Virus record (IMG/VR): IMGVR_UViG_3300027965_000213
Coordinates: 1 to 34,259 of that record
DNA length: 34,259 nt
Strand: one strand, 5' to 3'
DNA from: a virus
Made by a program: the position numbers and the translations under genes. The notes under the pieces are model-generated. The model ran no database searches. It was not told where the DNA came from and worked only from the letters and a program-made list of their open reading frames with translations. Below, piece by piece: positions 9,124 through 28,895 of the stretch. Positions within the stretch are counted from its first letter, which is position 1. Each line of letters begins with the position of its first letter.

Positions 9124-9606
9124 CCGGCAGAAACGCCAAACGAATCAGATGCTGACAATAGTACGAAAGAGCCCGTCAACGGGGAGAGTCGCCAGCCAGA
9201 ATCGCGCGGACCTATCGCTGCCGCTACGGCAGCCATCGCGACGGCGGCCGCGCGCGCCATGCAACTGGCAAGGAATCGCGCGGTCGGCAAGGGGTTTGAA
9301 AAAACAGTCGAACGGAAGATCTCTGAAGCTGGACTTGATTACGGAGAACAAGTTACGGTCAAGACTGACAGCGGCGTTCCTTATCGCAGTGACTTTATAA
9401 CTAGAGACCCAGCGACAGGTGAAATTGGCGGCGTCGAAGCGAAGGGGTCGGCCACCGCGCCTTTAACTTCCAACCAACAAAGGGCGATTCCGTAGATAGC
9501 GGAACGTGGCGCAACGATTGTTGGACGAGGTAAGCCAGGCTTTCCTGGGGGCATGCGCATTCCGCCGACGAGGTTTAGAATTGTCCGACCGGGATCGGAG
9601 AAATTC
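9124..9606 (+). pseudogene. PD-(D/E)XK nuclease toxin tip, in frame after amber codon
   Basis: This continues the frame of the carrier at 8290 with no indel. Residues resemble a restriction-endonuclease-fold toxin: GKGFEKTVERKI, then YRSDF with D (codon 9391), VEAKGS with E (9436) and K (9442), LTSNQQ, then after a second TAG (9493-9495) IAERGATIVGRGKPGFPGG and IPPTRFRIVRP, which reads like the normal end of the domain. Both TAGs would arise from CAG by a single C-to-T change. No stop separates this tip from the immunity start at 9607. An internal ATG at 9259 could give a short piece that still lacks the end. Most likely an inactivated toxin. Confidence 0.75.
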
Positions 9607-9987
9607 ATGACCATCGAACAGACTGATGTCATCGATTTCTGGGCGACCAAAGATGACAGCCCAGAAATATCGTTGATCATAGCCGACCATCTTCCATGGG
9701 ACGTCGACGAGGCGGAGCACCTTTGGATGCTGCAAGCTAAGATAAATAAGTACCTAGCTGCAATTGGGAGCGGCGAACTTTACGAAAAGGTGCCAAAGGC
9801 GCTTGACAAACGTATCGTCATTACGCTTGCGCCAAAATACCTCTTGAGCAAAAATGCGCAGTATTTTGTCGACAGAGTTCAAGGACTTATCCGATCCTAC
9901 GGTTTCGATTTCCGAGTGGACGACAAGCTATCGGACCGTAACGAAATGCCGGATGAGTTAAAACAATCGAATGTGAAACCGGTATAG
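9607..9987 (+). CDS. DUF6572-type immunity protein, copy 1
   Basis: A 126-residue protein starting MTIEQTDVIDF. The motif IADHLPWDVDEAEHLWMLQ, then KINKYLAAIGSGELYEK, is the signature of DUF6572, small acidic proteins commonly found beside polymorphic toxins. The start has only a weak purine run (ggatcggag) upstream and is in the same frame as the toxin, so amber readthrough could give a toxin-immunity fusion. The likely role is neutralising the nuclease tip just upstream. A paralogue lies at 10373. Confidence 0.75.
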   Translation: MTIEQTDVIDFWATKDDSPEISLIIADHLPWDVDEAEHLWMLQAKINKYLAAIGSGELYEKVPKALDKRIVITLAPKYLLSKNAQYFVDRVQGLIRSYGFDFRVDDKLSDRNEMPDELKQSNVKPV

Positions 9988-10372: not shown

Positions 10373-10756
10373 ATGACGATTGACCAAATGGACGTCGTCG
10401 ACTTCATCGTGGGCTCCGAGCGGGACCCGGAAATTCGCCTCGTCATCGCAGATCACCTGCCTTGGGACATCGAAGAAGCCGAGCATCTCTGGCTTCTGCA
10501 ATGCAAGATCAACAAGTATCTTGGCTTTATCGAGAGCGGCGAGATCTACGAAAAATGGCCGGCGGCGAGAGGCAAGCACCTCGTCATCGACCTTGCGCCG
10601 AAATATCCTCTAAGCGATCGCGCGCGTAATTTGGTTGTGAAATTCCAAGCGCTCATCCGGTCCTTTGGGCTCGAACTCCGCGTGAGACAAGCAGCGCTTG
10701 CGCCAGAATCAGAAATCGCCATCGGCCGAGGACCAGTCGGCGAAGGGCTGCAGTGA
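10373..10756 (+). CDS. DUF6572-type immunity protein, copy 2
   Basis: A 127-residue paralogue of the gene at 9607: MTIDQMDVVDF, IADHLPWDIEEAEHLWLLQ, KINKYLGFIESGEIYEKWP and LAPKYPLSDRARN all align. The last about 25 residues differ, and base composition is more GC-rich than in copy 1, which suggests different histories. No second toxin tip is visible between the copies, so this is an orphan immunity gene, a common feature where toxin tips have been exchanged. Confidence 0.75.
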   Translation: MTIDQMDVVDFIVGSERDPEIRLVIADHLPWDIEEAEHLWLLQCKINKYLGFIESGEIYEKWPAARGKHLVIDLAPKYPLSDRARNLVVKFQALIRSFGLELRVRQAALAPESEIAIGRGPVGEGLQ

Positions 10757-12594: not shown

Positions 12595-12842
12595 GCCGGC
12601 GAAAGAAACGCGCCAAGCCGGCCAAGGCGGGGCGCGAGCTCGTCAGGCTCAAGGCGCCGGCAGGCTGCGCGCCGTTCAAGCGCGGCGGCCGGCGCTACGT
12701 CCCGTCGAAGGACGGGATCGTCGCGGTTCCGAAAGGCCTGCTCGACGATCTCGTCGCGCATGGCTTTACGCCGCTCGCCGAGGCCGAGCCGGCGGCGAGC
12801 GCGGACGAACAGAGTGGCGGGGAGAGCGATGGCGGCGGATGA
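12591..12842 (+). CDS. Small basic protein between capsid and connector
   Basis: An 83-residue protein whose ATG overlaps the capsid stop (ATGA, 12591-12594). The N-terminus is very basic (SRRKKRAKPAKAGRELV), the middle has GGRRYVPSKDGIVAVPKGL, and the tail is acidic and Gly/Ser-rich. It overlaps the connector start by 14 bases. Translation is therefore coupled to capsid. It may be a head-decoration or head-completion factor. No family is recognised and the function is not established. Confidence 0.7.
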   Translation: MSRRKKRAKPAKAGRELVRLKAPAGCAPFKRGGRRYVPSKDGIVAVPKGLLDDLVAHGFTPLAEAEPAASADEQSGGESDGGG

Positions 12843-13650
12843 CCTGACCAATTTGGCCGCAGTGAAGGCCTGGCTCGGCCTGCCGAGCGGCGCTTCGCCG
12901 AACGACGCGACGCTCGCCGCGCTCATCACCGCGGCCAGCCGGTCGATCTATGCCTGGCTGTCGCGGCCGGCTCTGCTGCCGCGCGCCTATAACGAGACGC
13001 TCGACGGCGAAAGCCGGCGGATCGTTTTGCGGCAATGGCCGGCGCTGAGCGTCGCGTCGGTTGCAATCGAGGGGCGCGCGATCGAGCCGGTCGGCGCGCC
13101 GCAAAGCCGGCCGGGCTGCGGCTATCTGCTGCAAGCCGCCGAGAGCGCGCCGCCCGGGCGGCCGCAAGCGCTCGACATTTTCGGCTGGCGCGTGCCGCGC
13201 GGGCGGCAGAACGTGACGATCGCCTATACGGCCGGCTACGCCGTGATGAGCGAAGCGCAGAGCGTTCCGTCCGCCTCGCCCTGGCAGGTCGCGGTCGCCG
13301 CGCCTTATGGGGCCTGGGCTTCTGATCTCGGCGTCGTTTATGCGGCGAGCGGCGCGGCGTTGACGCAAGTCGCCGCCGCTCCGGCCGCCGGACAATACAG
13401 CGTCGCCGGCGGCGTCTATTCCTTCTCCGCCGCCGATTCCGGCGCGGCCGTCGCGATCTCCTATGGTTATATCCCGCAGGACGTCGCCCAGGCCGCGACC
13501 GAACTCGTCGCCGAGCGCTTCCGCGCCGCCGATCGCATCGGGCTGCGATCGAAGGCGGTGGGCGGACAGGAGACGGTCTCGTTCGATACGTCCGCCATGT
13601 CGGCGGCAGTGCTGGCGCTGTTGCAGCCGTACCGGCGGGCGTCGTTCTAG
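12829..13650 (+). CDS. Head-tail connector (gp6-like adaptor) with inserted beta module
   Basis: A 273-residue protein. The N-terminus LTNLAAVKAWLGLPSGA, then NDATLAALITAASRSIYAWL, is the usual start of phage gp6-like head-tail connector proteins, which dock on the portal. VTIAYTAGY at about 129-137 and the C-terminal helix from VAQAATELVAERFR complete the fold. Between them, residues 165-214 (SDLGVVYAASG to AVAISYGY) form an extra beta-rich module that reappears in the tail tube protein. The extra module explains the length, larger than the usual 190-200 residues. ATG 12829 lies inside the end of the previous gene. It ends TAG, directly abutting the next ATG. Confidence 0.85.
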   Translation: MAADDLTNLAAVKAWLGLPSGASPNDATLAALITAASRSIYAWLSRPALLPRAYNETLDGESRRIVLRQWPALSVASVAIEGRAIEPVGAPQSRPGCGYLLQAAESAPPGRPQALDIFGWRVPRGRQNVTIAYTAGYAVMSEAQSVPSASPWQVAVAAPYGAWASDLGVVYAASGAALTQVAAAPAAGQYSVAGGVYSFSAADSGAAVAISYGYIPQDVAQAATELVAERFRAADRIGLRSKAVGGQETVSFDTSAMSAAVLALLQPYRRASF

Positions 13651-14139: not shown

Positions 14140-14570
14140 GCAGAGAAGCGGCTTTCTCAGCCTTGTTCGACGCCGTCGTCGGCGCCTATCCCTGGGCGCT
14201 GGCGTCGCGGCGCCTGCGGGTGTGGAGCGAGGTCCCGGCGCCGATGCGGCCGGCTCTTTTCCAACTGGAAAGCGGCCCGGAAGCTTATCAATGGACCTCG
14301 CTGGCGAGGCCGCGTCGCACGCTCGAAGCCAAGCTCTTCCTCTACTTCGATTCGCGCGATCCGCTGACGCCCGGCGCCAGCGCGATCAACGCCGCCCTTG
14401 ACGCGATCGACGCGGCGCTGACGCCGCAAGGCGCGGACGCCGCGGCCGGCCGCCAGACGCTCGGCGGCGCCGTCCATGACTGCAAGATCGCCGGCGTGCC
14501 GGTGCGCGATACAGGCGACATCGATGGGGATGGGGTGGCGGTGTTGAGCGTGAGGCTGGTGCTGGGATAA
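14136..14570 (+). CDS. Tail completion/terminator protein
   Basis: A 144-residue protein with ATG at 14136 overlapping the gp10-like stop. SALFDAVVGAYPWA at the start, the RVWSEVPAPMRPALFQLE strand, LEAKLFLYFDSRD, and a C-terminal GDGVAVLSVRLVLG are the usual elements of DUF3168-like tail completion proteins, which cap the tail tube before joining the head. It is the last gene of the head-neck block; the accessory island follows. Confidence 0.75.
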   Translation: MSREAAFSALFDAVVGAYPWALASRRLRVWSEVPAPMRPALFQLESGPEAYQWTSLARPRRTLEAKLFLYFDSRDPLTPGASAINAALDAIDAALTPQGADAAAGRQTLGGAVHDCKIAGVPVRDTGDIDGDGVAVLSVRLVLG

Positions 14571-14635
14571 GGGGTCAGCACAGTGCGTCAAGAAAAGGGC
14601 GCGATGCGGCAAATTGCGCAAGCTGGTCTTGTCGG

Positions 14636-14649
14636 CCGTCAATTGACGG
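14636..14649. promoter_or_regulatory. Candidate HigA operator palindrome
   Basis: ccgtcaattgacgg is a perfect 14-bp palindrome 13 bases before the HigB-like start. HigA antitoxins repress their own operon by binding palindromes here. Weak flanking matches to -35 (ttgtcg, 14629-14634) and -10 (tacatc, 14652-14657) would place it between them. Confidence 0.5.
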
Positions 14650-14662
14650 TTTACATCTCCTC

Positions 14663-14941
14663 ATGATCAAACGGTTTCGACACAAGGGGCTCGAACGGCT
14701 GTTCCTGAAAGGCAGCGCCAAGGGGATCGACGCCCGGATCGCGTCCAAGCTCCGCCGCATGCTGGCGCGTTTGAACGATGGTCCCTTGCCCGAGGCGATG
14801 GCGCTGCCCGGTTACCGGTTGCACCAGCTCAAGGGTGATCGGGCCGGCTGTTGGTCGGTATGGGTGACCGGAAACTATCGTTTGATCTTCGAGATCGACG
14901 GCGATGACGCCACCAATGTCGATTTCGAGGATTATCACTAG
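14663..14941 (+). CDS. higB: HigB/RelE-family toxin (mRNA interferase)
   Basis: A 92-residue protein of normal family length. [14 protein letters not shown] at the N-terminus, then [20 protein letters not shown], then [16 protein letters not shown] and the terminal VDFEDYH are diagnostic of HigB toxins, ribosome-dependent mRNA endonucleases. Toxin precedes antitoxin, the HigBA order. The pair lies inside the tail-gene operon, an uncommon place, and may act as an addiction or anti-phage module. Confidence 0.92.
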
Positions 14942-14958
14942 CCAGGAAGGAGGCTGTC

Positions 14959-15258
14959 ATGGAGATGTTTAACCCGCCTCATCCAGGCGAAATTGTCCGC
15001 GAGGACTGCCTAAAGCCCGCTGGGCTGTCCGTGACCGCGGCGGCCAAGTGGCTTGGGGTCTCGCGCCAATCGCTTTCCGAGTTGCTGAACGGCCATAATG
15101 CGATGTCGCCGGACATGGCGATCCGTCTCGAAAAGGCCGGATGGGGATCGGCCGAGTCCTGGCTGCGCAACCAGCTCTCCTATGACCTTTGGCGCGCCAA
15201 GCGGCGCGCCGCCTTTATTAAGGTGAAGAAATATCCGTTGCCTCGCGCAGCCGCCTGA
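14959..15258 (+). CDS. higA: HigA-family antitoxin (HTH, XRE type)
   Basis: A 99-residue protein with ATG at 14959 after a strong AGGAAGGAGG ribosome site, 17 bases after the toxin stop. [20 protein letters not shown], then a helix-turn-helix [18 protein letters not shown], then [15 protein letters not shown] and [13 protein letters not shown] are the hallmarks of HigA. It neutralises HigB and is expected to repress the operon, possibly at the palindrome upstream of the toxin. Confidence 0.92.
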
Positions 15259-15295
15259 GCTGCCGCTTCACTCTCCTCGCCGAGAAATCCTTTGA

Positions 15296-15604
15296 TTAGG
15301 GGCGCTTTCCCCTAATGTCGCGCCAGTATTCTTCCGCGACTTCGTCGTCAATCTCGACGGCTAGAGAGCTCTCCGGATAGAGGCGATCGTTCCCGTCTCG
15401 GCGAGGGCCGGAAATCCAAAATTCCTCACCAGTTTCACTGTCGCGGTAGTTCGCCTTGGAGCCTCTGCCGCCAAGGCCGTGGAATGTGCGCCCACGATAG
15501 TAGATGGTTTTGCCCGTCTTCGAGAATGTCACACGGCCGATCCGCGCCGGCCCATTGAGGGACGACGCCTTGTTTTCAATGTACATGATCCGGCTCTTGG
15601 GCAT
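15296..15604 (-). CDS. Conserved hypothetical protein (MPKSRIMYIE family)
   Basis: A 102-residue protein on the minus strand. It opens MPKSRIMYIENKASSLNG and contains RIGRVTFSKTGKTIYYRGR, ANYRDSETGEEFWISGPRRDG and EVAEEYWRDIRGKRP. This is a widespread small family in bacteria with no established function, often with a wrong metabolic name in databases. ATG at 15604 is chosen because the additional N-terminal residues from 15634 do not look conserved. It is convergent with the HigBA operon. Confidence 0.75.
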   Translation of the reverse strand: MPKSRIMYIENKASSLNGPARIGRVTFSKTGKTIYYRGRTFHGLGGRGSKANYRDSETGEEFWISGPRRDGNDRLYPESSLAVEIDDEVAEEYWRDIRGKRP

Positions 15605-15634
15605 CGTTTGATTATGAAGGCTACGCCGGAGCAC

Positions 15635-15786
15635 GCAACAGCTAGATGAGTGCGCAGCGCATTTAATTACATGTTACTCCGAATCTCAATCCCCCTCGCT
15701 TCGCTTCTGCCAATGATGGTTCAACGCTTCAGTCCGATGTGACCAAAAGCCGCTCCGCGTCGAGAACGGGGGAAACGTGTGGGACG
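15635..15786. other. Short non-coding interval
   Basis: AT-richer than the structural genes. I see no gene, repeat or clear promoter. It could contain the promoter of the minus-strand gene ending at 15296. Confidence 0.3.
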
Positions 15787-15996
15787 TCATTGGCGGTCAT
15801 CCAGAACGGAGGGAGGAATGGATAGGGGGTCGGCGAAAGGGGGCCAATCAAAATGGCCATTTCGAAAGTCGATGGCGCAATCGTCCCGTTCTGGAACTGA
15901 GTAGAGCGTTCGTGGGTTGTCGGTGCGCGAGGTAAACCCAGCCGCTAGCCGGCCCTGGGAGGCTTCGATGGCCTGATAGTCAACTACTGAATCCGA
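15787..15996 (-). other. Unannotated open frame, possible gene remnant
   Basis: On the minus strand a frame of 69 codons is open from 15996 (TAA at 15997-15999) to a TGA at 15787-15789. It reads like protein (DYQAIEASQGRLAAGF, TDNPRTLYSVPERDD, DFDWPPFADPLSIPP-like segments) but has no ATG, GTG or TTG start. It slightly overlaps the end of the upstream minus-strand gene in the -1 frame. It may be a decayed gene, or the end of a protein split by a frameshift. Confidence 0.35.
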
Positions 15997-16337
15997 TTAG
16001 GGAAGAAATCACCAGTTTGAGGATTATAGGCGTGCAGGCCGTGCTTATGCGCTGTTTGCACGATAAATGGCGCAGCCTCTTCGTATCGCGACCAGACCAG
16101 CGATATGTTGATGAAATCGCCGATAATATTTCCCACGAGTGGACCGTCTCCCCAAACCGTGTCCGTAGTTTCGGCGAGGTCGGGATAGCGCGCAATGAGA
16201 TCGCTGACGAACATCACGAGCGTTTCAGAGGGAGGAACTTTTGATCTCCCTTGAAGCGCACGAACTTTATCTCGGAAATTAGAGTCCGCCGGATCGAGCT
16301 GGAGGTTAGGAGCCCAGCAGTAGATATGAGCGGTCAC
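15984..16337 (-). CDS. Candidate immunity-type small protein
   Basis: A 117-residue protein from a GTG start. MTAHIYCWAPNLQLDPADS at the start, then VMFVSDLIARYPDLAETTDT, a hydrophobic NIIGDFINISLVW, and AHKHGLHAYNPQTGDFF at the end. The last motif is typical of small immunity-like hypotheticals beside polymorphic toxins. No toxin tip is visible beside it, so it may be an orphan immunity gene. Family not named with confidence. Confidence 0.6.
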   Translation of the reverse strand: MTAHIYCWAPNLQLDPADSNFRDKVRALQGRSKVPPSETLVMFVSDLIARYPDLAETTDTVWGDGPLVGNIIGDFINISLVWSRYEEAAPFIVQTAHKHGLHAYNPQTGDFFPNRIQ

Positions 16338-16545
16338 GAGCTAGAGTCCTCACGAGTACGCATGGACCGGCTCCGCAATTGATTCAGGCTAGCCGCAGAA
16401 AACAATCGACATATCAAAGCTGACCGCATCGATCTAGGACGCTCTCATCGCTCCGTAAGAGCCGCTGCGCGCAGGGGCGACGGCGCGCCGTTGCAATTTC
16501 CGAATCCCTCGCTTCGACCTCTTTCTTACTAATGGAGAAACGTCA
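16338..16545. other. Leader region of the tail operon
   Basis: 208 bases lie between the GTG of the minus-strand gene and the tail tube start. They must hold the divergent promoter for that gene and may hold one for the tail genes. The only clear element is the ribosome site in aatggagaaacgtca just before ATG 16546. Confidence 0.35.
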
Positions 16546-17280
16546 ATGTTCGTCTTCGGATCCGGCGTGCTGATCGGCACGCCGCAAGGCGGCTCGCCGA
16601 TCAATTTCGGCTTGGCGCAGGAAGTCTCGCTCAATGTCAGCACGACGACCAAAGCCCTGTTCGGCCAGTACAACTTTCCGGTCGCGATCGGCTCGGGCAC
16701 GCGCAAGATGGCCGGCAAGGCCAAGATGGCGCGGATTTCCGGCCAGGCGCTCGGCGCCTTGTTCTTCGGCGTGACGCCGACTTCCGGCGGGACTTTGACG
16801 CAATTCGGCGAGGCGGCGGCGGTGCCGGGCGCGTCGCCCTATACATACACGGTCGTCAATCACACGACGTTCGTTTCCGACCAGGGCGTCGTCTATGCGG
16901 CGAGCGGGCTGCCGCTGAAACAGGTGGCTTCCGGCCCGGCGACGGGACAATATTCGGTTGCTGCCGGCGTCTATACGTTCGCCGCCGGCGACGCAGGCGC
17001 GGCCGTGCTGGTCAGCTATACCTATACGAATACGTCGAGCGGCGAGAACGTCGCCGTCGCTTCGCAATTGATCGGCCCGACCGTCTCCTTCTCGGCCAAT
17101 CTCTTTGCCGCCGATCCGACCACCGGCAAGCAATTCTCGGTGCTGCTCTATAATTGCGTCGCCGAGAAACTCGCCTTCGGCACCAAGCTCGAGGATTTCG
17201 TCATGCCCGAGCTCGACTTCCAATGCTTCGCCAACAGCGCCGGCCAGGTGTGCCAGCTCAATTTCGGAGACGCCGCGTGA
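16546..17280 (+). CDS. Major tail tube protein with beta-rich insert
   Basis: A 244-residue protein in the g9 position of GTA-like clusters. FGSGVLIGTPQGG near the N-terminus, FGLAQEVSLNVSTTTKALFG and MAGKAKMARISGQALGALFF are usual for this class of tube protein, and VSFSANLFAADPTTGKQFSV, LEDFVMPELDFQCFA close the tube core. Residues 111-161 (SDQGVVYAASG to AVLVSYTY) are a module also present in the connector at 12829; it probably faces outward. Tube subunits stack as hexamers around the tape measure. The stop overlaps the next gene's GTG. Confidence 0.88.
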   Translation: MFVFGSGVLIGTPQGGSPINFGLAQEVSLNVSTTTKALFGQYNFPVAIGSGTRKMAGKAKMARISGQALGALFFGVTPTSGGTLTQFGEAAAVPGASPYTYTVVNHTTFVSDQGVVYAASGLPLKQVASGPATGQYSVAAGVYTFAAGDAGAAVLVSYTYTNTSSGENVAVASQLIGPTVSFSANLFAADPTTGKQFSVLLYNCVAEKLAFGTKLEDFVMPELDFQCFANSAGQVCQLNFGDAA

Positions 17281-17657
17281 ACGAAGAGCCGTTTACGGTC
17301 GCGCTCGGCGGCCGGTCTTGGGCGCTGCCGCATCTGCCGTTCCGCGCCATCAAGAAAATCCAGCCGCTCCTGTTTCAGCTCTATGGCGAGCTCGGCGGCG
17401 CCGAGGCTTCGCTACAGAGCCTCGCGCGCTTCACCGAGGCGCAGCTCGACCGGCTGGCCGAGGCGGCCTATGTCGCCGTCGCCGTCGTCGACAAGGAGCT
17501 CAGCCGCGAGGCGTTTTTCGAGCTGCCCTTCTCGGTCGGCGAATTGATGCTCGCCTTTCCGGCGATCGCGCGGGCCGCGGGCCTCAAGCCGATCCCGCCG
17601 GAGCAAGCGGCGGCGGAGGCGCCACGCCCTTTGGGGGAGTCGATTTCGACCGGCTGA
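17277..17657 (+). CDS. Tail assembly chaperone, 0-frame product
   Basis: A 126-residue protein from GTG 17277 (GTGA overlap with the tube stop). FTVALGGRSWALPHLPFRA, IQPLLFQLYGELG and FFELPFSVGELMLAFPAIA match GTA-type tail assembly chaperones, which coat the tape measure during tail building and are absent from the finished virion. Near its 3' end is a slippery CCCTTTGGGGG, giving a longer -1 product. The 0-frame tail after the site (GESISTG) is short and featureless, as in lambda G. Confidence 0.85.
   Translation: MNEEPFTVALGGRSWALPHLPFRAIKKIQPLLFQLYGELGGAEASLQSLARFTEAQLDRLAEAAYVAVAVVDKELSREAFFELPFSVGELMLAFPAIARAAGLKPIPPEQAAAEAPRPLGESISTG
17627..17637 (+). promoter_or_regulatory. -1 ribosomal frameshift site
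   Basis: The 0-frame codons are cgc cct ttg ggg gag. C CCT TTG (17627-17633) is a canonical X XXY YYZ heptamer, and T TTG GGG (17630-17636) is a second overlapping one. Slippage gives CCC TTT GGG GGA in the -1 frame, which stays open to 17887. Such sites in this gene are conserved in siphoviruses as the G/GT system. Confidence 0.85.
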
Positions 17658-17887
17658 TCGCTCACGTCGTCGCCAATACCGGCTGGACCTGGGACGAGGT
17701 CGAAGACGGCCTCACCTTGCCGCGCCTCGCCGCGCTACAGGCCGAGTGGCGCGACAATCCGCCGGCGCATTGGCTGCTCGCGGCGCTGGCGAAGTACAGG
17801 CGGCCGTCGGAAACCGAGGGTTCAGAGGGTCGCCGGCAGACGACCATCGCTGCGATCCAAGCTGCTTTTCCGCATGGGCGATCGTGA
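17634..17887 (+). CDS. Tail assembly chaperone, -1 frame extension (GT-like)
   Basis: About 84 residues read only after -1 slippage, making a fusion of about 203 residues. The sequence FDRLIAHVVANTGWTWDEVE, LTLPRLAALQAEWRDNPPAH and AALAKYRR has clear coding character, yet the frame has no ATG, GTG or TTG start before a TTG in LTLP. RcGTA instead encodes the equivalent pair as separate genes (g10 and g10.1), so this frameshift arrangement is the phage-like state. The extension is expected to bind the tape measure. Confidence 0.8.
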
Positions 17888-17912: not shown

Positions 17913-19229
17913 ATGTCCGACGCCAATCTCGAAGTCCGCTTTTCCGCCTCGGTCGACGACCTGACCCAAGGCGTCGCCGAGGTGAAAGACGCGCTCGCCG
18001 ACCTCACCGAGGCGGCGGGCCGGATGAACGGCCAATATCAGACGCTCGGCGCCTCGATCGTCGCGGCGATGTCGCCGGATAAGTTGCGCGCCTTCGATGC
18101 GGCGCTGCTTTCGTCGGCGTCGCTCGAAAAATCGCTCGCCGCCGCGCATGATCAGGCCGCCAAGGCGATTCGCGACGGCGACGACGCTTCTTACGCTGAC
18201 GCCGTGCGCGCGGCCAAACTCGCGGTGAACGAGGAGGTCAAGGCCGTCCAGGACGGTTTAAGGCAGAAGCTTTCGCTCTACGCCGCCGAAACGCAGCGCC
18301 ATGAAATCACTCAGGAGCAGAAAGCGGCGCTGTCGCGCCAGGCTATGGACGAAGAATATCAAGCCGAGCTCGCGCTGCTGCAGAAGGAGATGGCGCTGAG
18401 CGGGCAGACGCTAACGCAGAAGCAGCAGATCGACGACAAGATCCTCGACGCTGAGCGCCGCCATCAAGATCAGGTCGCGCAACTCATTCAACGATCGCTC
18501 ACGGCGCAGCAGCGCGAATACGAGGGCTACGCCAACGCCGTCACGCAAGCCTTCAATTCGCAATTGCGCGGCCTGCTCGCCGGCACGACCAACTGGCACA
18601 CGGCTTTCAAGAACATGCTCAGCGATCTGCTGATCAGGTTCATCGAATGGGGCGAGACGACGGTCGTCCAACATGTCGCCAACGAAGCGGCGAAGACCGC
18701 GGCGACCTCCGCCGGCGTCGCGGCGCGAACCGGCGCGGAGCAGGCGGGCGCGTCGGCCTCGCTCGCCATGCAGGCCTCGACGATCATCCGCTCGATCCTG
18801 TCCTCGGCGGCGGAGGCCTTCGCCGGCGTCTTCGGCTTCTTGTCGCCGATCTTGGGGCCGCTCGCGGCGGGCCCGGCTGCGGCGGCGCATGCGATGGTCG
18901 CCGGCATGGCCGGCGAGGTCGCCTCGGCTGATATCGGCATGTGGCGCGTTCCGTCCGACATGCTGACGCTGGTCCACCACAACGAATTGGTCATGCCGGC
19001 GGCGCAGGCTTCGGCTTTCCGCGACATGCTCAGCGATTCGGCGAACGGCGGCGCGGCCTCGGGCCGTGCGGTTCATATTCATCCGACCACTAATTTCCAC
19101 GTTTCGGCGATCGATTCCGGCTCGGTCGCGCAATGGATCAAGGCGAACAGCGCGTCGATGGCCAAGGCCATGGACGAGGCGGCGCGCCATGGGGCGCTGC
19201 TCGGGTTGCGACGGCTCGCCGGCGCTTAA
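17913..19229 (+). CDS. Short tail tape measure protein
   Basis: A 438-residue protein. Residues 1-220 are long helices with many Ala, Gln and Glu (AAHDQAAKAIRDGDDAS; LLQKEMALSGQTLTQKQQ). Next comes a membrane-interacting region (about 225-345) with IRSILSSAAEAFAGVFGFLS and a Gly/Ala-rich hydrophobic stretch. The conserved MWRVPSDMLTLVHHNELVMP-type segment and a terminal AMDEAARHGALLGLRRL complete it. At about 1.5 angstrom per residue it predicts a short tail of some 65 nm. It follows the frameshifted chaperone as usual. Confidence 0.85.
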   Translation: MSDANLEVRFSASVDDLTQGVAEVKDALADLTEAAGRMNGQYQTLGASIVAAMSPDKLRAFDAALLSSASLEKSLAAAHDQAAKAIRDGDDASYADAVRAAKLAVNEEVKAVQDGLRQKLSLYAAETQRHEITQEQKAALSRQAMDEEYQAELALLQKEMALSGQTLTQKQQIDDKILDAERRHQDQVAQLIQRSLTAQQREYEGYANAVTQAFNSQLRGLLAGTTNWHTAFKNMLSDLLIRFIEWGETTVVQHVANEAAKTAATSAGVAARTGAEQAGASASLAMQASTIIRSILSSAAEAFAGVFGFLSPILGPLAAGPAAAAHAMVAGMAGEVASADIGMWRVPSDMLTLVHHNELVMPAAQASAFRDMLSDSANGGAASGRAVHIHPTTNFHVSAIDSGSVAQWIKANSASMAKAMDEAARHGALLGLRRLAGA

Positions 19230-19247: not shown

Positions 19248-21731
19248 ATGGGCTTCATCGGCGGCGTGCATCTCCTGCCCGCCACGGGCGAATTCACGTA
19301 CGACACCGTCGCTCATCAAGCCGCGCAAGCGGGCGGCGCGATGGCGGGCGTGAACACGTTCCATGCGCCTGGCGGCGCCAAGACGGACTATTCCTACGCG
19401 ATCGATCAGTTGCAGGCCGCGCATCCGGAATGCGGGACCGTCTCGGTCCTCTGCGCCTGGTTCGGCGATTCGCTCGATGCCGCGACCTGCCGGATCTATC
19501 CATCGACCAATTTCATCGGCGGCTCTTTCGAGCAGTTGTCCGGCTCCTCATGGACCGCCGATTCTTGGCGCGTCTCGGGCCTGACGCAGTCTTCGCCCGG
19601 CCTCATTCCGATCCCGACGAGCGGCGGCGGGGCGGTTTATGGCGGCACGCCGTCCGATCAGAGCGTCGTGCGCTGCATGCAGGACCTCAAGAGCCGCGGT
19701 TTCAAAGTCGTATTTTATCCGTTCATCCTGATGACCGCGGCCGGCCTGCCCTGGCGCGGGCGGATCGCTCATGCGCCGGATATGAGCAGCGCCGCGACCA
19801 GCGCGGTCCAAGCTTTCCTTGGCGACGCGACCCGCAATCAATTCACGCCGAATGCGGCCAACCTTACCGTCTCCTATTCCGGCTCGCCGACGGACTTCAC
19901 TTATCGGCGCATGATCCTTCACTACGCCTGGCTTTGCGCCTTGGCCGGCGGCGTCAATCTGTTCTTGCTCGGCTCGGAATTGCGCGGGCTCGAGACGATC
20001 CGAGGACCGGCCTGGACCAAGGTCGGGACGACCGACGGTTCGGGCGCCGCAATCTGGGACTATCCCTTCGTCGCTGGCTTGCAGGCGCTGGCGACCGACG
20101 TGCGGGCGATTTTCGACGGGCAAGGCCTGAGCAAGGACACGGCTAATCTCGAGAATCTCATCGCCTATTCGGCCGACTGGTCCGACTGGATGGGCTTTCA
20201 GCATCCGGGCGAGGGCGGGCAATGGCCGCATCTCGACCAGCTCTTCGCGCAAAACGAGATCGACGTCGTCGGCGTCGACAATTACCTGCCGCTCTCGGAT
20301 TGGACCAGCGACGGCGGCCTCGACGCGCTCACCTGGTCCGCGCCGGCGCCCTCCGGCGCCTGGCCGCCTTCAAGCGCGACATTGGGCGGCCTGGGGCTCT
20401 CCGGACCGCCGACCATCTATGATCTCGATTATCTCAAGGCCAATATCGAGGGCGGCGAGAAATTCAACTGGTACTACAACGACGGCGCCAATCTCGGCCG
20501 TGGTCTCGACCCGAACGGCTCGGACCAGCAACTCTCGCTGCCAGAAGGCGATCGGCTGGCTCAGGCTCGCAATCCGTACTATCCGAACCAGCAATTGCTC
20601 GCCAACAAGCAATTCCGCTGGTGGTGGTCCAACTCGCATCAGGCGATCTACGATGCCGGCGACGGCCTCGGCTGGGCACCGCATGGGCCGCAAACCGAGT
20701 GGCGAGCGCAGTCGAAGCCGCTCGCCTTCATCGAATACGGCTTTCCCGCCGCCGACCGAGCGACCAACCAGCCGAACGTGTTCTTCGACGCTGGCTCCAG
20801 CGAGAGCGCGACGCCCTATTGGTCCTTGTGGGCGGAGGCGGAAGGCGGCGCCTATCAACCGCAGCGCGACGATACGCTGATGATGCTGGCGCTGCAGGCG
20901 ATCTATGAATATTGGAACGGCGACGGCCACAACGAGACCTCGCCCGGCGGCGCCAAACTGATCGAATTCGCCTTGTCCTGCGTCTGGGCGTGGGACGCGC
21001 GGCCGTTTCCGACCTTTCCGCTCCTGACCAGCGAATGGGCGGACGCCGCCAATTGGCGGACCGGCAATTGGCTTTCCGGCCGCGGGCCGGCTTTGCCGCC
21101 GATTCCGCCTTCGCCGCCGCCGGCGCCCGGCGTCTATGCGAGCTTTCCGACGCTCGGAGCGCTCTCCTGGTCGACGCATATCGCGCCTCGCTTCGCGACC
21201 GATGTCGCGGCGCGCGTTTCGGGCCGCTCGAGCCGAAGGCCGCGCTACGCCGCAGCGCTTTACGACGTCGAGTTGACCTACGAGGTTTTGCGCGGCGATG
21301 CGGCGCATCTCGAACTGCAGACGATCGCCGGCTTTTTCGCGGCGATGCAGGGACGAACTCAGCCGTTCTGGCTCGCGCCGCCGGGCTTGGCGGAAGTCGC
21401 GGGCCAAGCGCTTGGGGCGGGCGACGGCGCGACGGTGAAATTTCCGCTCGTTCGCTCTCTTGGAACGTATGTCGAACTGGCCGCAGGAACGTCCGGCGTC
21501 GCCGCGGTCTATGTGAACGGCGCCGTAGCGCCGCCGACGAGCTACTCGGTCTCGGGCGGTTATGCGCCTGCGGTCGTATTCGTATCGCCGCCCGCACGCG
21601 GCGCGGCGGTCGCGGCCGATTTCGGTCTGCTCTGGCTCTGCCGATTTTCCGAGGACGTTGTCGATCTCGAGGAGTTCATGGCGATGCTCTTCGAATTGCG
21701 CATGCTGAAGCTGCAAACGGTGCGGCTGTGA
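19248..21731 (+). CDS. GTA TIM-barrel glycosidase-like domain fused to DUF2460
   Basis: An 827-residue protein. Residues 1-600 correspond to the GTA TIM-barrel-like domain that in RcGTA is part of the tail-tip protein gp15 (MTAAGLPWRGRIAHAPDM, FTYRRMILHYAWLCALAGGV, FLLGSELRGLETIRG, WSDWMGFQHPGEGGQWPHLD, DVVGVDNYLPLSDW). It probably binds or cuts surface polysaccharide; the catalytic acids are not certain. After a Pro-rich hinge (about 605-628), residues 630-827 are DUF2460 (VYASFPTLGALSWSTHI, TQPFWLAPPG, LGAGDGATVKFPL). The next gene is a second DUF2460 protein. The TIM barrel is thus on a different gene than in RcGTA. Confidence 0.82.
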   Translation: MGFIGGVHLLPATGEFTYDTVAHQAAQAGGAMAGVNTFHAPGGAKTDYSYAIDQLQAAHPECGTVSVLCAWFGDSLDAATCRIYPSTNFIGGSFEQLSGSSWTADSWRVSGLTQSSPGLIPIPTSGGGAVYGGTPSDQSVVRCMQDLKSRGFKVVFYPFILMTAAGLPWRGRIAHAPDMSSAATSAVQAFLGDATRNQFTPNAANLTVSYSGSPTDFTYRRMILHYAWLCALAGGVNLFLLGSELRGLETIRGPAWTKVGTTDGSGAAIWDYPFVAGLQALATDVRAIFDGQGLSKDTANLENLIAYSADWSDWMGFQHPGEGGQWPHLDQLFAQNEIDVVGVDNYLPLSDWTSDGGLDALTWSAPAPSGAWPPSSATLGGLGLSGPPTIYDLDYLKANIEGGEKFNWYYNDGANLGRGLDPNGSDQQLSLPEGDRLAQARNPYYPNQQLLANKQFRWWWSNSHQAIYDAGDGLGWAPHGPQTEWRAQSKPLAFIEYGFPAADRATNQPNVFFDAGSSESATPYWSLWAEAEGGAYQPQRDDTLMMLALQAIYEYWNGDGHNETSPGGAKLIEFALSCVWAWDARPFPTFPLLTSEWADAANWRTGNWLSGRGPALPPIPPSPPPAPGVYASFPTLGALSWSTHIAPRFATDVAARVSGRSSRRPRYAAALYDVELTYEVLRGDAAHLELQTIAGFFAAMQGRTQPFWLAPPGLAEVAGQALGAGDGATVKFPLVRSLGTYVELAAGTSGVAAVYVNGAVAPPTSYSVSGGYAPAVVFVSPPARGAAVAADFGLLWLCRFSEDVVDLEEFMAMLFELRMLKLQTVRL

Positions 21732-23372: not shown

Positions 23373-23987
23373 ATGCTCGTCGAAGAGATCGAGAAGGCGT
23401 GGGTTGCGCGCGCGAAGAGCGCGCCATTCTATCCGACGCCGACTTTCGTCGGCGACGCGTTGACTCTCGGCGCGGGAACTGTGATTGCGCGTACTAAAAG
23501 GCCTCTTGACACGCAAGAGAAGTCATCCGGCGATACGCGTGTCGTCGCGCTGCTCGCCACGGCGTTTCGGCGGGCGATCGGGCAAAAGGCTCGCGCTCAT
23601 TTGCGTTGCGCGCTGGAAAAGCGCGCGGAAGGCGACGAGCTTGTCGCTTCGATTCACCTGGCGTTGATGGGCTTGCCGCGTCTCGATCGGAACAATGGCG
23701 CGGCGCGCCGCCTTTTCGCCGCCGACCGATTGCTGCAGAAGGGCGTGACTCCGGAGACGATTTTCGCGGCGCTTGATCTCGACCCCACGTCGTCCGGCGA
23801 GTCGCTACGCAAATACAATCCCAATCAGCCGCGCGTCCCAGCCGGCAGTGGCCGGATGAGCGGGCAATGGACCTCGGGCGGCGACGCGCAAGCGGCAGCT
23901 ACACCTGCGCCTAACCTGCTGACAAGCCTTCCGCTCAAGGTCATTCGGAGACCTCCGCCGCCACAATGGCGACTGCCGCTGCGTTAA
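23373..23987 (+). CDS. Toxin-carrier protein, locus C (frameshifted)
   Basis: A 204-residue product. Residues 1-155 are the same carrier domain as in the gene at 8290 (VGDALTLGAGTVIA, DTRVVALLATAFRRAIG, LVASIHLALMGL, GAARRLFAADRLL, then KYNPNQPRVPAGSGRMSGQW). After about residue 178 the frame turns into an unlikely Pro/Arg-rich end, while the -1 frame from about 23915 reads on naturally (ADKPSAQGHSETSAATMATA) into the toxin region at 23966. A single-base loss near 23908-23920, a stretch of cct repeats, explains both. The gene follows the hub and is the third toxin locus. Carrier function is unknown. Confidence 0.7.
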   Translation: MLVEEIEKAWVARAKSAPFYPTPTFVGDALTLGAGTVIARTKRPLDTQEKSSGDTRVVALLATAFRRAIGQKARAHLRCALEKRAEGDELVASIHLALMGLPRLDRNNGAARRLFAADRLLQKGVTPETIFAALDLDPTSSGESLRKYNPNQPRVPAGSGRMSGQWTSGGDAQAAATPAPNLLTSLPLKVIRRPPPPQWRLPLR

Positions 23988-24877
23988 GCGCCGCGCGGCC
24001 GGCCAGCTCGGGCCTCGCGGAAGCCGGCTCGTTCTTCGCCGAAACCGTCATGCCGAGAGCGCTCGCCGCCCTGGCGCAGCTCGCGCTGCGAGCCGCAGGT
24101 CCGGTGGCTCTCTTCGGCATGCTGGTCGTGCCTTCGCCTTCAGGGAATCAGACAGTCGAAGGCGCGGTCCCCGGCCGGCCTGACCTCAAATACGAATGGC
24201 CCACAGGCGGGTCGATCCTCTATCTCCACCGGCTGATTCAAGGCCAGTGGGTCACCGTCGCGCTAGGGCATTTGGGCACAGACTGGATCTTTCGCGACGA
24301 CGCCGGCAAGCCGATCGCGCGGGTCATCGATGCGAAAAATCGCGTAATCGCCATCGACATCGCGGCGATTTCGCAGGCCGAGCGCGACGACAAAAACAAG
24401 CAGAACAGCCAGGCTGCCGTTGGCGCCGCTGGAGCCGCTGCCGCCGGCGCCAAAGCAGGGACGGCTGCGCGAGTAAAAGAGGAGCCCAAGCTCTGTCCGG
24501 AGCCTGTTGGGGAATTCAGTGAGTCGTGGTCAGAAAATTCGAGAGAATATCAGGCAAGAGTTACAGGACTTCCTCCACCGCTCGCGATCTTTTTTAATGG
24601 AGAGTGGTTCGACGGCTGCGTGGAGGAAGAAAAAGGCAAGCTGCAGCAAGCCACAGGCGGTCGCGAAAACTTTTTAGACGGGGATGGAGATTGGTACACC
24701 TGGTTTCAGGGCGGATGGAAACTCCCTGATCAGATTGACCGCAGCTATAAGGCGGCAAAAACTGCCGGAAGGCTGATCGATTGGCATGTTCAAAAAAAGC
24801 GTGTCTACGACTGGATCGCCGCTTACGTAAAGCATGAAAACTATGGTGATGTGATTAAGGTTATCTACGACCCCTAG
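23966..24877 (+). CDS. Tox-REase-5-type nuclease toxin, second part of locus C
   Basis: A 303-residue frame that is the natural continuation of the carrier at 23373 after a one-base shift. Residues 1-165 are a linker with GTDWIFRDDAGKPIARVID and an Ala-rich helical stretch. The last about 130 residues fit Tox-REase-5: LCPEPVG, YQARVTGLPPP, FNGEWFDGC, EEEKGKL (FDG-Asp and ExK as candidate active site) and DWHVQKKRVYDWIAAYVK near the end. ATG 23966 has no ribosome site and may be just an internal Met. An Imm52-type gene follows directly, which supports the identification. Confidence 0.75.
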   Translation: MATAAALSAARPASSGLAEAGSFFAETVMPRALAALAQLALRAAGPVALFGMLVVPSPSGNQTVEGAVPGRPDLKYEWPTGGSILYLHRLIQGQWVTVALGHLGTDWIFRDDAGKPIARVIDAKNRVIAIDIAAISQAERDDKNKQNSQAAVGAAGAAAAGAKAGTAARVKEEPKLCPEPVGEFSESWSENSREYQARVTGLPPPLAIFFNGEWFDGCVEEEKGKLQQATGGRENFLDGDGDWYTWFQGGWKLPDQIDRSYKAAKTAGRLIDWHVQKKRVYDWIAAYVKHENYGDVIKVIYDP

Positions 24878-24885
24878 GAGAACCA

Positions 24886-25605
24886 ATGGCTGAGGAATCA
24901 TATGCGCTGCATTGCTGGTGGGGTAGCCGTAGAGAAGAAGCGGCGGCCTGCGCAGAACATCTGGTTCAGACCCTCAACGGACTGGCAGAAGAAGACCATA
25001 CTTTTCACAACTGGGATTGCTGTGATCTTCCCGCCGGCCTCGAAGAGATCACAGCACTTTTTAACGCCAATCGCCCGTTTCACTCGCCTCCCTCCAGGGA
25101 GCCTTGGCCAGAGTTGGGGTTCGGGCTCAAGATAAAAAATCGACTGAACGACTCAGACGGCGCTCTAATTAGTTTGCGTGTTGGCGCTTTCGGCGACGCG
25201 AACCCACATGCGAATAGTCTGGCCCTCGTCTTTAGCAAGCGTCGTTCCTCGACAAGGCGGCCGTGGACGGCAAGCGATCTTCGGAAAATCATGCGTTTGA
25301 TCATCAAGGAATGGCGTCCCGAAGAAGCTTCGGTGGACTGTTTTCGATACATGAAGTTCCTTCGCCACTATCTCAATTCGAATGGTCAGGAAGGGCTTTA
25401 CCTGCCTTGGGAGGGGTGGATCACATATATTCCAGGACTTCAGGTCTCCCGGATCGATCCGCCGCACGGCGTCGATGTTGAGCGTCTTGATGACGGCAGC
25501 GCCCTCTACTCGCTTTGCGAGGAGCCATTTACAATAGACAATCCGAAGCATATGGCGCTTGCTGCAAGTATGCAGAAGGCATTGGAGCCGATCCAAACGC
25601 GGTAA
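24886..25605 (+). CDS. Imm52-family immunity protein
   Basis: A 239-residue protein with ATG 24886 and an AGGAG site that overlaps the toxin stop codon. LHCWWGSRREEAAACAEHLV, LAEEDHTFHNW at the start, a WTASDLRKIMRLIIKEWRPE centre and ITYIPGLQV near the end agree with Imm52, the family usually paired with Tox-REase-5. It should neutralise the preceding nuclease. It is complete, unlike its toxin. Lower GC than the structural genes suggests it came in as a cassette. Confidence 0.82.
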   Translation: MAEESYALHCWWGSRREEAAACAEHLVQTLNGLAEEDHTFHNWDCCDLPAGLEEITALFNANRPFHSPPSREPWPELGFGLKIKNRLNDSDGALISLRVGAFGDANPHANSLALVFSKRRSSTRRPWTASDLRKIMRLIIKEWRPEEASVDCFRYMKFLRHYLNSNGQEGLYLPWEGWITYIPGLQVSRIDPPHGVDVERLDDGSALYSLCEEPFTIDNPKHMALAASMQKALEPIQTR

Positions 25606-25985: not shown

Positions 25986-26648
25986 GACTTGGTCGAGCTC
26001 TTCGAAGCAATCCTCGATTGGCGGGAGACCCGCCTCCTCGCGACGTTGATCGATTATCGCGCGGATCGCCGCTCTGAAAGCAACCGGTTCGTCAAGAAGC
26101 GCTGCAAGAGTTGCGGCCTGAGCTTTGTACTCACGATCTCTGTCGCTTTCGACTTCCGCGGCTTCGATCGCGGAGAATAGTTGGCGTGACGCATCGAATT
26201 CAAGATTTAACCCGCTCGCGACCGCGGCATGAAATAGATGGGCGAGCAGTCCATGAGGCTCGGCTTTTAAAACGCGGCTTATCGCTGAGAGGTTGCAGAA
26301 TTTCGCTCTGAGTGCGCGCACCTCGTCTGCGGCGCGAGCTGCTGCGCGTCCTATGAGGGGTCGAAATTGTTCTGGCGCTTCGAATGGAATAAATCCGACA
26401 TCTGCAACACGATAGCCGTAGCTAAAATTCAGCCCTAGATTGCTCTTCCGGTACCAGAGCCAACTAGCGCCGACGTTCAAATACGTGCCTTTCGAAAAAC
26501 CGCTCGGCTGAAACTCGACCATGATCGCCCAAAAACGCTCGTCTGATAACCAAACGCGTGATTGGCCGCGGCGGAAACAGCCGATCGGCGCGAGAGCCGC
26601 CTTTGCAGCGTTGGCGATCAAGCGGCCGTGTTCGTTCTGCATCGCCAT
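25980..26648 (-). CDS. Candidate immunity protein, VEFQPS family, copy 1
   Basis: A 222-residue protein on the minus strand, ending six bases into the convergent orphan tip. The first about 60 residues hold IANAAKAALAPIGCFRRGQS, RVWLSDERFW, VEFQPSGFSKGTYLNVGASW, a conserved pattern in alphaproteobacterial hypotheticals that resembles DUF4304-like immunity proteins. The rest is helical and differs strongly from the paralogue at 26927. The orphan nuclease tip it faces is a plausible target. Family and target are inferred, not certain. Confidence 0.65.
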   Translation of the reverse strand: MAMQNEHGRLIANAAKAALAPIGCFRRGQSRVWLSDERFWAIMVEFQPSGFSKGTYLNVGASWLWYRKSNLGLNFSYGYRVADVGFIPFEAPEQFRPLIGRAAARAADEVRALRAKFCNLSAISRVLKAEPHGLLAHLFHAAVASGLNLEFDASRQLFSAIEAAEVESDRDREYKAQAATLAALLDEPVAFRAAIRAIIDQRREEAGLPPIEDCFEELDQVL

Positions 26649-26650
26649 TG
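26537..26650 (-). repeat. Immunity-gene 5' repeat, copy 1
   Basis: The first about 110 bases of the gene ending at 25980 are nearly the same as 27497-27610 and recognisable in 28680-28797. Identity falls abruptly after about codon 40. Confidence 0.75.
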
Positions 26651-26926
26651 AGTAGCTCTAAAGCATTTGCAATCTTGACTTCAAACTTATGCCTCTCGGC
26701 CAGGTTGCTCAACGAATTTTGTCTATCGCAATCGCTGAGGCTTTTGGCGCGGAACCCAAGCGAGCTTGCTGCGCCCTTTCCACCTCAGTGGGGCCTAGTC
26801 AACAGCCGTCCCAAACCGATCCGATAGTTCCACCTGTTCCAGGGCTCAGTGACAGTCGCTCATACATGATCCGAGGATCGATACGACAGGGTCACCGACA
26901 AGCGAGTCGACAGAATCCTACAGAGG
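26649..26926. other. Interval between two minus-strand immunity genes
   Basis: 278 bases without a clear gene. Bases about 26650-26755 (including cctctcggccaggttgctca) recur at about 28799-28885, upstream of the decayed third copy, so the repeat unit covers upstream DNA as well as the gene start. It may hold the promoter of the minus-strand gene at 25980. Confidence 0.5.
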
Positions 26927-27607
26927 CTAGACGGCTTCTGGAGCCTTTCTTTCAACTGGCCAGAAGCAATCATCGATTGATGGTAATCCAATCGCGAGGC
27001 GACGGCGCCTGATTCCTTCGGCAACAGTTTTACGAAAGCTGTCGAGGTCATTGAGCTCCCGAACGAGTCGCGCTGCTTCGCCACGGAGCTCCCGTTGCCA
27101 GGCGAAGGCGGCGGGCAGGGCGTCGAGCCGCCGAAAAAAAGAATGTGCGGAATCGGCATCGTGATTGAGTCCTGCGGCGACGGCCGCATGGAAGAAACCC
27201 CAATCACTCGATTTTGGCTTCGCGCTCAAATGGCGGCTGATCGCCTCAATGGAAGGAAACTTCTTCCTCAATGCTAGGACTTCCCGAGCGGCGCGCTGCG
27301 CCATGTCCTTGGTCAAAGGCCGAAACTGCTCCGTGCTTTCGAAAGGCGCGAACCCGGCGTCATGGACACGATCGCGATGATCGAAGGACAGCGCCGATTT
27401 CTGCAGCTCCGACCAAAGCCAGCTCGCTCCGACGTTGAGATACGAGCCTTTCGAATAACCACTTGGTTGAAACTCGACTAAGATTATCCAATAGCGTTCA
27501 TCCGACAACCAAACGCGTGATTGGCCGCGACGGAAACAGCCGATCGGCGCGAGAGCCGCTTTCGCAGCGTTGGCGATCAAGCGGCCGTGTTCGTTCTGTA
27601 TCGCCAT
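26927..27607 (-). CDS. Candidate immunity protein, VEFQPS family, copy 2
   Basis: A 226-residue paralogue of the gene at 25980. Residues 1-40 differ at only about two positions (MAIQNEH start, DERYW), and VEFQPSGYSKGSYLNVGASW follows, but beyond about residue 70 only scattered positions match (PFESTEQFRPLTK, GFFHAAVAAGL, LPSIDDCF). Immunity proteins often diverge in the part that meets the toxin. No toxin tip is left next to it, which suggests an orphan immunity gene. Confidence 0.65.
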   Translation of the reverse strand: MAIQNEHGRLIANAAKAALAPIGCFRRGQSRVWLSDERYWIILVEFQPSGYSKGSYLNVGASWLWSELQKSALSFDHRDRVHDAGFAPFESTEQFRPLTKDMAQRAAREVLALRKKFPSIEAISRHLSAKPKSSDWGFFHAAVAAGLNHDADSAHSFFRRLDALPAAFAWQRELRGEAARLVRELNDLDSFRKTVAEGIRRRRLAIGLPSIDDCFWPVERKAPEAV

Positions 27608-27610
27608 TGA
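27497..27610 (-). repeat. Immunity-gene 5' repeat, copy 2
   Basis: Matches 26537-26650 almost base for base from the start codon to about codon 38, including aaacgcgtgattggccgcg. Confidence 0.75.
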
Positions 27611-27861
27611 GAGCTCCGAAGCGTCCGTCGAAAGTTATCTCTCGAATCCGGTTCGATCAACGAGAGGTACTACGTGAAAATGCATTGTAATTGACACGAG
27701 TTGGGATCCGACGCTGGATCTCGCAATTTGCGCTGACGTTGCGGCAGCTACGGGTCCGCCAACCGGAGAAAAAGACGATAAACGGGCGTCATTTATCTAT
27801 ACTCAGATAATAACACCAATTACCGTGCGGTCTGCATAACTTACGTGGCTGGGAGCCAGAG
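27608..27861. promoter_or_regulatory. AT-rich divergent promoter region (candidate)
   Basis: 254 bases between divergent genes. They include ttgaca (27691-27696) without a good -10 at 17 bases, and tatact (27798-27803) within an AT-rich stretch about 60 bases before ATG 27862, without a good -35. The exact promoter cannot be fixed, but a promoter for the secreted-protein gene must lie here or close by. Confidence 0.35.
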
Positions 27862-28344: not shown

Positions 28345-28440
28345 TTGCCGCGAACCCAGACAGGGCGGGAATTTGGTTACGCTCCGAACGGAAAACCTCA
28401 TATCGACGGTCCTAGAATCGATAAGCTTATCGACACATTT
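28345..28440 (+). other. Possible remnant of a toxin C-terminus
   Basis: The frame after the preceding stop codon (28342) reads GREFGYAPNGKPHIDGPRID, then KLIDTF and TGA (28438-28440). It looks like the very end of a protein rather than random sequence. It may be the last piece of a lost tip; no domain can be named. Confidence 0.3.
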
Positions 28441-28539
28441 TGAAGACTTTGCAGTCCGAGGGGCGTGGGGCTACAGCGAGTGGCCTATTCCAAGCCCGCT
28501 GCGACGGCCGCGTTATAAATATCCCAAACAGATTCATTT

Positions 28540-28791: not shown

Positions 28792-28797
28792 TGAGAA
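28680..28797 (-). repeat. Immunity-gene 5' repeat, copy 3 (decayed)
   Basis: Third, more diverged copy of the repeat at 26537 and 27497; the homology extends upstream to about 28885, matching 26650-26755. Confidence 0.65.
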
Positions 28798-28895
28798 GCT
28801 CCAAAACATTGCAATCTGGGCCTCAAACTCATGCCTCTCGGCCAGGTTGCTCAACGAACCTTGTCTATTGCAATCGCCGAGGCGTCATATTTCCA

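Follow-up and report, generated by a model that had tools for sequence, protein, structure and literature searches.

A predicted programmed −1 frameshift in the tail assembly chaperone pair of a viral DNA stretch, with a conserved Shine-Dalgarno-bearing block upstream of the slip site

The tail assembly chaperones G and GT of phage lambda are reportedly made by a programmed −1 frameshift, in which a shift near the end of G gives a minor G-T fusion. At dnaX, an internal Shine-Dalgarno (SD) sequence pauses ribosomes. PMC5009743 cites Levin 1993 and Xu 2004 on lambda G/GT. According to PMC5506516, the tail assembly genes of corynephage phi16 are annotated with an internal SD (GAGG) and the sequence GGGGGAA, and a downstream pseudoknot is proposed. 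GGGGGAA is the 'fivetwo' slip motif, present at all of about a thousand actinophage sites, for which the PRFect paper (PMC10274946) argues G:U re-pairing. Rhodobacter phage RcDormio (MW677510) has a GTA_TIM tail protein; its tail assembly chaperone is annotated as joined, and GGGAAAC occurs near the junction.

The window, that is, the whole stretch of 34,259 nucleotides analysed here (positions 1 to 34,259 of IMG/VR record IMGVR_UViG_3300027965_000213), holds two open reading frames (ORFs) between its major tail protein and tape-measure genes. The second, T, overlaps the first, G, in the −1 frame. Judged from sequence comparison, the two very probably constitute a lambda-type tail assembly chaperone pair in which a programmed −1 frameshift yields a G-T fusion. 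The genes and signals concerned are as follows.

16546–17280, + strand: upstream gene, probable major tail protein (phrog_8234; weak match to phrog_2729, virion structural protein)
17277–17657, + strand: G, upstream chaperone ORF, 126 amino acids, GTG start, stop codon at 17655–17657
17633–17887, + strand: conserved part of T, the −1-frame extension of 84 amino acids, phrog_8018 family, entered by the predicted frameshift
17913–19229, + strand: tape-measure protein gene (phrog_2854, phrog_339)
19248–21731, + strand: GTA_TIM/DUF2460 tail protein, the mark of a GTA-type tail tip
17607–17625, + strand: position of the upstream hairpin of relatives, GCGACG-NN-GGAGG-CGTCGC, kept in relatives; the window alone is not above shuffles
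17615–17619, + strand: internal SD-like GGAGG, with the same spacing to the slip site as in the main clade
17627–17637, + strand: run CCCTTTGGGGG, in phase at the G/T overlap
17627–17633, + strand: candidate slip site 1, C CCT TTG, shared only with L033 (the same element) and L041
17630–17636, + strand: candidate slip site 2, T TTG GGG, in X XXY YYZ phase
17633–17639, + strand: candidate slip site 3, G GGG GAG, coinciding exactly in position with the GGGAAA[A/G] of 49/54 close relatives and kept in all five members of the window subgroup

The gene order (major tail, G, T, tape measure), with two overlapping ORFs and a −1 shift near the end of G, is that of lambda G/GT, and the GGGAAA[A/G] slip site used by most relatives of the window is a further likeness. 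However, there is no sequence match to the lambda proteins, the slip run of the window is CCCTTTGGGGGAG, and in the group of the window a conserved SD-in-hairpin block lies upstream while no downstream structure is detectable. The phi16 and actinophage 'fivetwo' sites share with the window an internal SD and a GGGGGAA-type slip site in tail assembly genes, but the window has GGGGGAG with an overlapping CCCTTTG, and no pseudoknot was detected, in contrast to the proposal for phi16. RcDormio is similar in its tail protein and joined chaperone; nonetheless, its G and T proteins are not among the tblastn matches of the window G and T. The frameshift is a textbook device known in phages, here in a new protein pair. 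What is new is the sharply conserved SD-hairpin block, the overlapping non-canonical slip site and, as set out below, the finding that frameshifting does not separate phages from gene transfer agents.

Reading frames, candidate slip sites and protein identity

The GTG start of G overlaps the stop of the preceding gene as GTGA (17277), and relatives keep both an NTGA overlap at this position and a GGAGA-type SD upstream of G. The −1 frame is open from 17072 to 17887, ending at the TGA of 17885–17887, and contains neither ATG nor GTG between 17277 and 17656. The statement in the earlier note that this frame has no start of its own is correct to that extent; two start-like codons are nevertheless present, one a TTG at 17318, within G, and the other a CTG at 17654, which overlaps the stop of G. 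That the frame is protein-like up to 17887 agrees with the concentration of T-frame differences at third codon positions described below.

Near the end of G the zero frame reads GAG GCG CCA CGC CCT TTG GGG GAG TCG. The two overlapping heptamers listed in the earlier note, CCCTTTG and TTTGGGG, are both in X XXY YYZ phase. GGGGGAG overlaps both and is non-canonical, not having the X XXY YYZ form. Of 5,000 codon shuffles of G, 5.5% contained one or more in-phase heptamers in the final 36 nt, and 17% contained two or more anywhere in the gene. The heptamers of the window by themselves are weak evidence, within reach of chance; the case is carried by conservation.

In the proposed mechanism most ribosomes would stop at 17655–17657 and release G, and what is presumably a minority would slip back one base in the run CCCTTTGGGGGAG and produce a G-T fusion of 203 amino acids. 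Derived by hand from the reading frames, the predicted fusion has this length whichever site is used and only the junction peptide differs: PLGGVDFDR (...AAAEAPRPLGGVDFDR) is predicted for a shift at CCCTTTG or TTTGGGG and PLGEVDFDR (...AAAEAPRPLGEVDFDR) for a shift at GGGGGAG. The GGAGG block would pair with 16S rRNA and stall the ribosome; by analogy with dnaX, pausing at this internal SD is likely. As in lambda, G would coat the tape-measure protein and the T part would recruit the major tail protein.

The case for a chaperone role comes mostly from gene order and the frameshift itself. No named family among the Pfam, PHROG and NCBIfam profiles was matched by G or T of the window. The AlphaFold model of G has a pLDDT of 80.5, and its BFVD neighbours include several phage proteins named tail assembly chaperone, all weak (best E 0.05, probability 0.95). 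Against the PDB, Foldseek returned no match for G, the best VIA Z score was 4.6, to unrelated helical proteins, and the sequence-profile search gave nothing credible. The T model matched no viral structure.

Conservation of the junction and of the upstream block

Homologues of T were collected from 23 IMG/VR loci, then from 78 IMG/VR loci with alignment, together with 8 genome loci. They include loci of Methylocapsa sp. S129, Roseiarcus fermentans and a MAG labelled Bradyrhizobium, and an identical copy of T occurs in the Alphaproteobacteria MAG Centralia_MAG_152 (L033). Merging of identical 180-nt stretches reduced 89 listed loci to 75 distinct junctions; the set of 54 close relatives leaves out L002, L003, L039, L040 and all from L098 upwards. 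In 72/75 distinct junctions an in-phase slip site precedes the zero-frame stop at a point where the T frame is open; in the other three (L039, L114 and L115) none was made out. The relatives gave no case of two independent genes lacking a slip site, the finding that the earlier note named as contrary to its proposal, and they support that proposal, a frameshift in a chaperone pair flanked by the major tail and tape-measure genes.

At the exact position of window 17633, the 54 close relatives carry GGGAAAA (28), GGGAAAG (21) or GGGGGAG (5). The zero-frame stop is at +22 in 48 of them, and in the remaining six a TAG at +7 follows the slip site directly. None of the 54 has an ATG, GTG or TTG in the T frame within 120 nt upstream of the junction. 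A TGA ending 3 nt before the slip position closes the T frame of L037, L078 and L090, which places the shift there or later, never upstream. In the T-only stretch the window differs from its relatives mainly at T-frame third codon positions (against L034, for example, 6, 5 and 17 differences at positions 1, 2 and 3, respectively), and this concentration indicates coding selection on T in the T frame. Sequence comparison thus establishes where the junction lies and in which phase, that T lacks a usable start and is under selection in its own frame, and that an SD-like block stands upstream at fixed spacing. Taken together, the 72/75 slip sites, the missing T start in 54/54, T-frame selection and the constant SD block make −1 frameshifting very likely.

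Two of the loci are decayed copies: in L090 an apparent deletion has shortened G and joined it to the gene before it, and L179 has a broken T frame behind an intact slip block. In the Acinetobacter phages 5W (L002, 3001–3270) and MD-2021a (L003, 3001–3273), GGGGGAATAG and GGGGGAATAA, respectively, lie between two hypothetical proteins, and this junction appears from its sequence to be an unannotated frameshift homologous to that of the window.

The homologous slip position of the relatives, 17633–17639, lies 3–6 nt downstream of the heptamers named in the earlier note. The subgroup of the window (L033, L034, L041, L042 and L052) has GGGGGAG throughout, and CCCTTT precedes it in L033 and L041 alone, being missing from three of the window's four nearest distinct relatives (L034, L042 and L052). 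In these alignments the evolutionarily fixed slip position is 17633 (G GGG GAG), and the upstream CCCTTTG and TTTGGGG may be an addition to it, or a substitute for it, in the window lineage.

A rival reading concerns the exact site only, within the frameshift explanation. That the window shifts at CCCTTTG or TTTGGGG alone, with GGGGGAG as a bystander, is a serious possibility that falls a little short of an even chance. C_CCU_UUG is a slippery heptamer measured in E. coli, shifting above 0.10% without stimulators according to PMC4066793, L041 retains CCCTTTGGGGGAG although it has diverged elsewhere, and GGGGGAG departs from the canonical form. On the other hand, GGGGGAG stands without CCCTTT in the three relatives just named, in the outgroup L109 and the two Acinetobacter phages a stop follows GGGGGAA directly, most further relatives have GGGGGAA or GGGGGAG, and the 13-nt SD spacing of the main clade holds to 17633. 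In PMC4066793, G_GGA_AAG, the form seen in many relatives, ranks among the best heptamers. The published slipperiness of C_CCU_UUG, the GGGGGAA precedents and the GGGGGAG of the relatives render all three overlapping sites plausible.

A quite different explanation, that translation restarts at the CTG overlapping the stop of G (CTGA, 17654–17657), much as G itself starts at GTGA, and yields T as a protein of its own, is very improbable. An overlap of this kind is common among the 49 relatives with GGGAAA, which at base +21 have C (43), T (3), G (2) or A (1), with TG next in 47. However, CTG is a poor start codon, the six close relatives with a stop at +7 end the zero frame elsewhere, the T residues ahead of the CTG (G-K-x-D-F-D) are conserved, and the constant SD block is too far upstream to serve such a start; moreover, re-initiation would not require a conserved slip site. 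Damaged host copies of the cluster do exist (the Bradyrhizobium-labelled MAG, L090 and L179), but the suggestion that the frame break is a sequencing error or the mark of a decayed gene has a negligible probability and was rejected, given the same −1 relation with a slip site in 72/75 junctions and the selection on T-frame codons.

The predicted frameshift site is preceded by a block of 19 nt, from −26 to −8, that is near-invariant in the 49 GGGAAA relatives (GCGACG-NN-GGAGGCGTCGC) and is bordered by variable stretches on both sides. Each of the six consecutive codons from −26 to −9 has a single synonymous codon among the sequences with the commonest amino acid, and the flanking codons vary. 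At codon −20 to −18 the amino acid varies, and the third base (−18) is G in 48/49. Single synonymous codons and a fixed G despite a varying amino acid indicate constraint on the nucleotides. A scan of IMG/VR for GCGACGNNGGAGGCGTCGC-N6-8-GGGAAA returned 67 contigs with a spacer of exactly 7 in 67/67, and by the strict pattern T lies directly downstream in 64/67; of the others, L150 has a variant T, L192 ends and L179 is broken. Treatment of the block as a dispersed repeat was rejected, as each of six host genomes has 0–1 copy and each matching locus has one.

In the relatives a hairpin holds the GGAGG in its loop, and the distance from there to the slip site downstream is constant. The structure alignment comprised 51 sequences, L034, L042 and L052 being left out because 9 nt are missing between the SD block and the slip site. 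It has a 6-bp stem around the GGAGG-bearing loop with 99.0% of 300 cells paired, above all 500 shuffles, and three compensatory cells (A-U to G-C), likewise above all 500 shuffles. The covariation is thin, because just one stem pair changes on both sides and 111/500 shuffles do equally well. In the window the arms 17609–17612 and 17620–17623 (GGCG/CGCC) can pair, a G-C replacing the A-U of relatives; taken by itself in the window, this 4-bp stem is no stronger than those of shuffled sequences (z +0.41). The window keeps, to 17633, the 13-nt SD spacing of the main clade, which compares with a stimulatory range of 6–17 nt given in PMC4066793. PMC6321510 describes hairpins just upstream of slip sites that attenuate −1 shifting in other settings. 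A downstream pseudoknot or hairpin as stimulator was rejected, with none standing out in the window (z −0.51) and no signal in the 49-sequence alignment. The signal is sharp, consisting of a 19-nt block with GGAGG in a hairpin loop, a 7-nt spacer and the slip site, and offers a clean test of internal-SD stimulation outside enterobacteria.

GTA clusters and the chromosomal locus of the element

In position and two-part layout, G and T resemble g10/g10.1 (PF11836/PF09550) of RcGTA-type gene transfer agents (GTAs). Genomes with PF09550 numbered 41, from which 30 loci were fetched and 18 Hyphomicrobiales genomes were taken further, each with a full-length GTA_TIM match a few kilobases downstream of adjoining PF11836 and PF09550 matches. 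In 17/18 of these clusters T is in the −1 frame of G. A T-frame ATG, GTG or TTG for g10.1 is missing in 12/18, a proportion not to be extended to all GTAs since at least six of the 12 fetched loci left out have a start overlapping the stop (L120, L122, L128, L136, L141 and L146). Eleven of the 12 have an in-phase slip site, and in three of these (L126, L133 and L147) GGGAAAG stands directly before TAA; in other clusters the second ORF begins at a start that overlaps the stop, for instance ATGA. GTA clusters thus include both layouts, and many GTA g10/g10.1 pairs (L119–L148) likely use a −1 frameshift that is unreported: the portions of the literature on gene transfer agents and RcGTA that were covered yielded no report of frameshifting in the tail assembly chaperone or g10.1.

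No homology of the window G and T to g10/g10.1 was detected. Neither matched the PF11836 or PF09550 profile, PF11836 was reached weakly by 1/29 members of the G alignment (E 0.0035), and profile-profile comparison by hhalign gave probabilities of 4.3% for T and 0.7% for G.

The window continues in a Centralia contig that matches it at 99.98–100%, in which the lysozyme gene at the window end runs straight into thioesterase, fmt, patatin, purD, creA, cysS and leuA-like genes. The same fmt-purD flank adjoins the cluster in the Bradyrhizobium-labelled MAG (a decayed cluster), in bog_939 and in R. fermentans. This right flank is common to 4/6 genomes, the other two contigs ending before it, and on the left dapD and a second gene are common to R. 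fermentans and Methylocapsa. The cluster accordingly occupies a conserved chromosomal locus (dapD ... fmt-purD) in different host genera of Hyphomicrobiales, as expected of a GTA or domesticated prophage. Between loci, best-segment identity is 34–86% for cluster proteins (most 54–86%, the lowest in the decayed copy) and 47–80% for flank proteins. Matches to tyrosine integrase or serine recombinase (PF00589, PF00239) are absent from the six cluster-bearing contigs, four of which are short and two of which are 113 and 210 kb, and the six cluster-bearing genomes have no RcGTA-type PF11836 or PF09550. A host fmt gene was found in 0/50 IMG/VR records, which is uninformative because such records can be partial or have had their host DNA removed.

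The earlier note read the frameshift as speaking for a phage rather than a domesticated GTA. Neither the 12 GTA clusters lacking a T-frame start, 11 of them with a slip site, nor the single chromosomal locus of the window cluster in several genera, with no match to an integrase or serine recombinase there, bears this out, and by these comparisons the frameshift is no mark of a phage as against a GTA. From its sequence the window cluster looks like a fixed, GTA-like or domesticated element with polymorphic-toxin cassettes; related prophages that insert at one common site by means of a recombinase missed in these searches are another possibility. A joint reading may be offered tentatively, as one that we hold to be distinctly less than probable: the window would be most of a GTA-like element not recognised before, a permanent occupant of the interval from dapD to the fmt-purD region in Beijerinckiaceae-like Hyphomicrobiales without an RcGTA-type cluster, carrying polymorphic toxin/immunity cassettes that include variable portal C-termini; selection would maintain its tail assembly by way of a −1 frameshift under the control of an internal SD presented on a hairpin. 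If this reading is true, alphaproteobacterial GTAs would commonly use programmed frameshifting. Should a head-tail cluster fixed in the chromosome retain an intact frameshift under selection, its hosts would still be building tails from it.

Toxin cassettes and other features of the window

In the region 2579–5802 the portal gene has a C-terminus that is variable after 'NPYHDERGRFTTADGA'. An Imm-NTF2 gene (4826–5131) lies between the portal gene and an orphan portal tail end (5230–5802), which is 82% identical over 99 amino acids and then different; R. fermentans has many portal pieces. In the tail region, 23966–25605 encodes a Tox-REase-5 domain protein followed by an Imm52 protein, an apparent toxin/immunity pair. 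The combination of portal/Imm-NTF2 with Tox-REase-5/Imm52 would be a polymorphic-toxin layout comparable to the MuF toxins of temperate phages (PMC5576092).

Relative to L034, L014, L015 and L041, the window has an insertion of ~1.9 kb at about 14570–16530, which carries a gene for a helix-turn-helix protein resembling those of plasmid antitoxins (phrog_1381). At 26451–28883 a ~200–290 bp repeat is present in three diverged copies, 82–87% identical. Near the head genes, two paralogous DUF6572 genes (9553–9987 and 10373–10756) are 61% identical. The connector-like protein (12760–13650, residues 163–237) and the major tail protein (16546–17280, residues 87–160) have a common domain that is 57% identical and that also shows as a DNA repeat.
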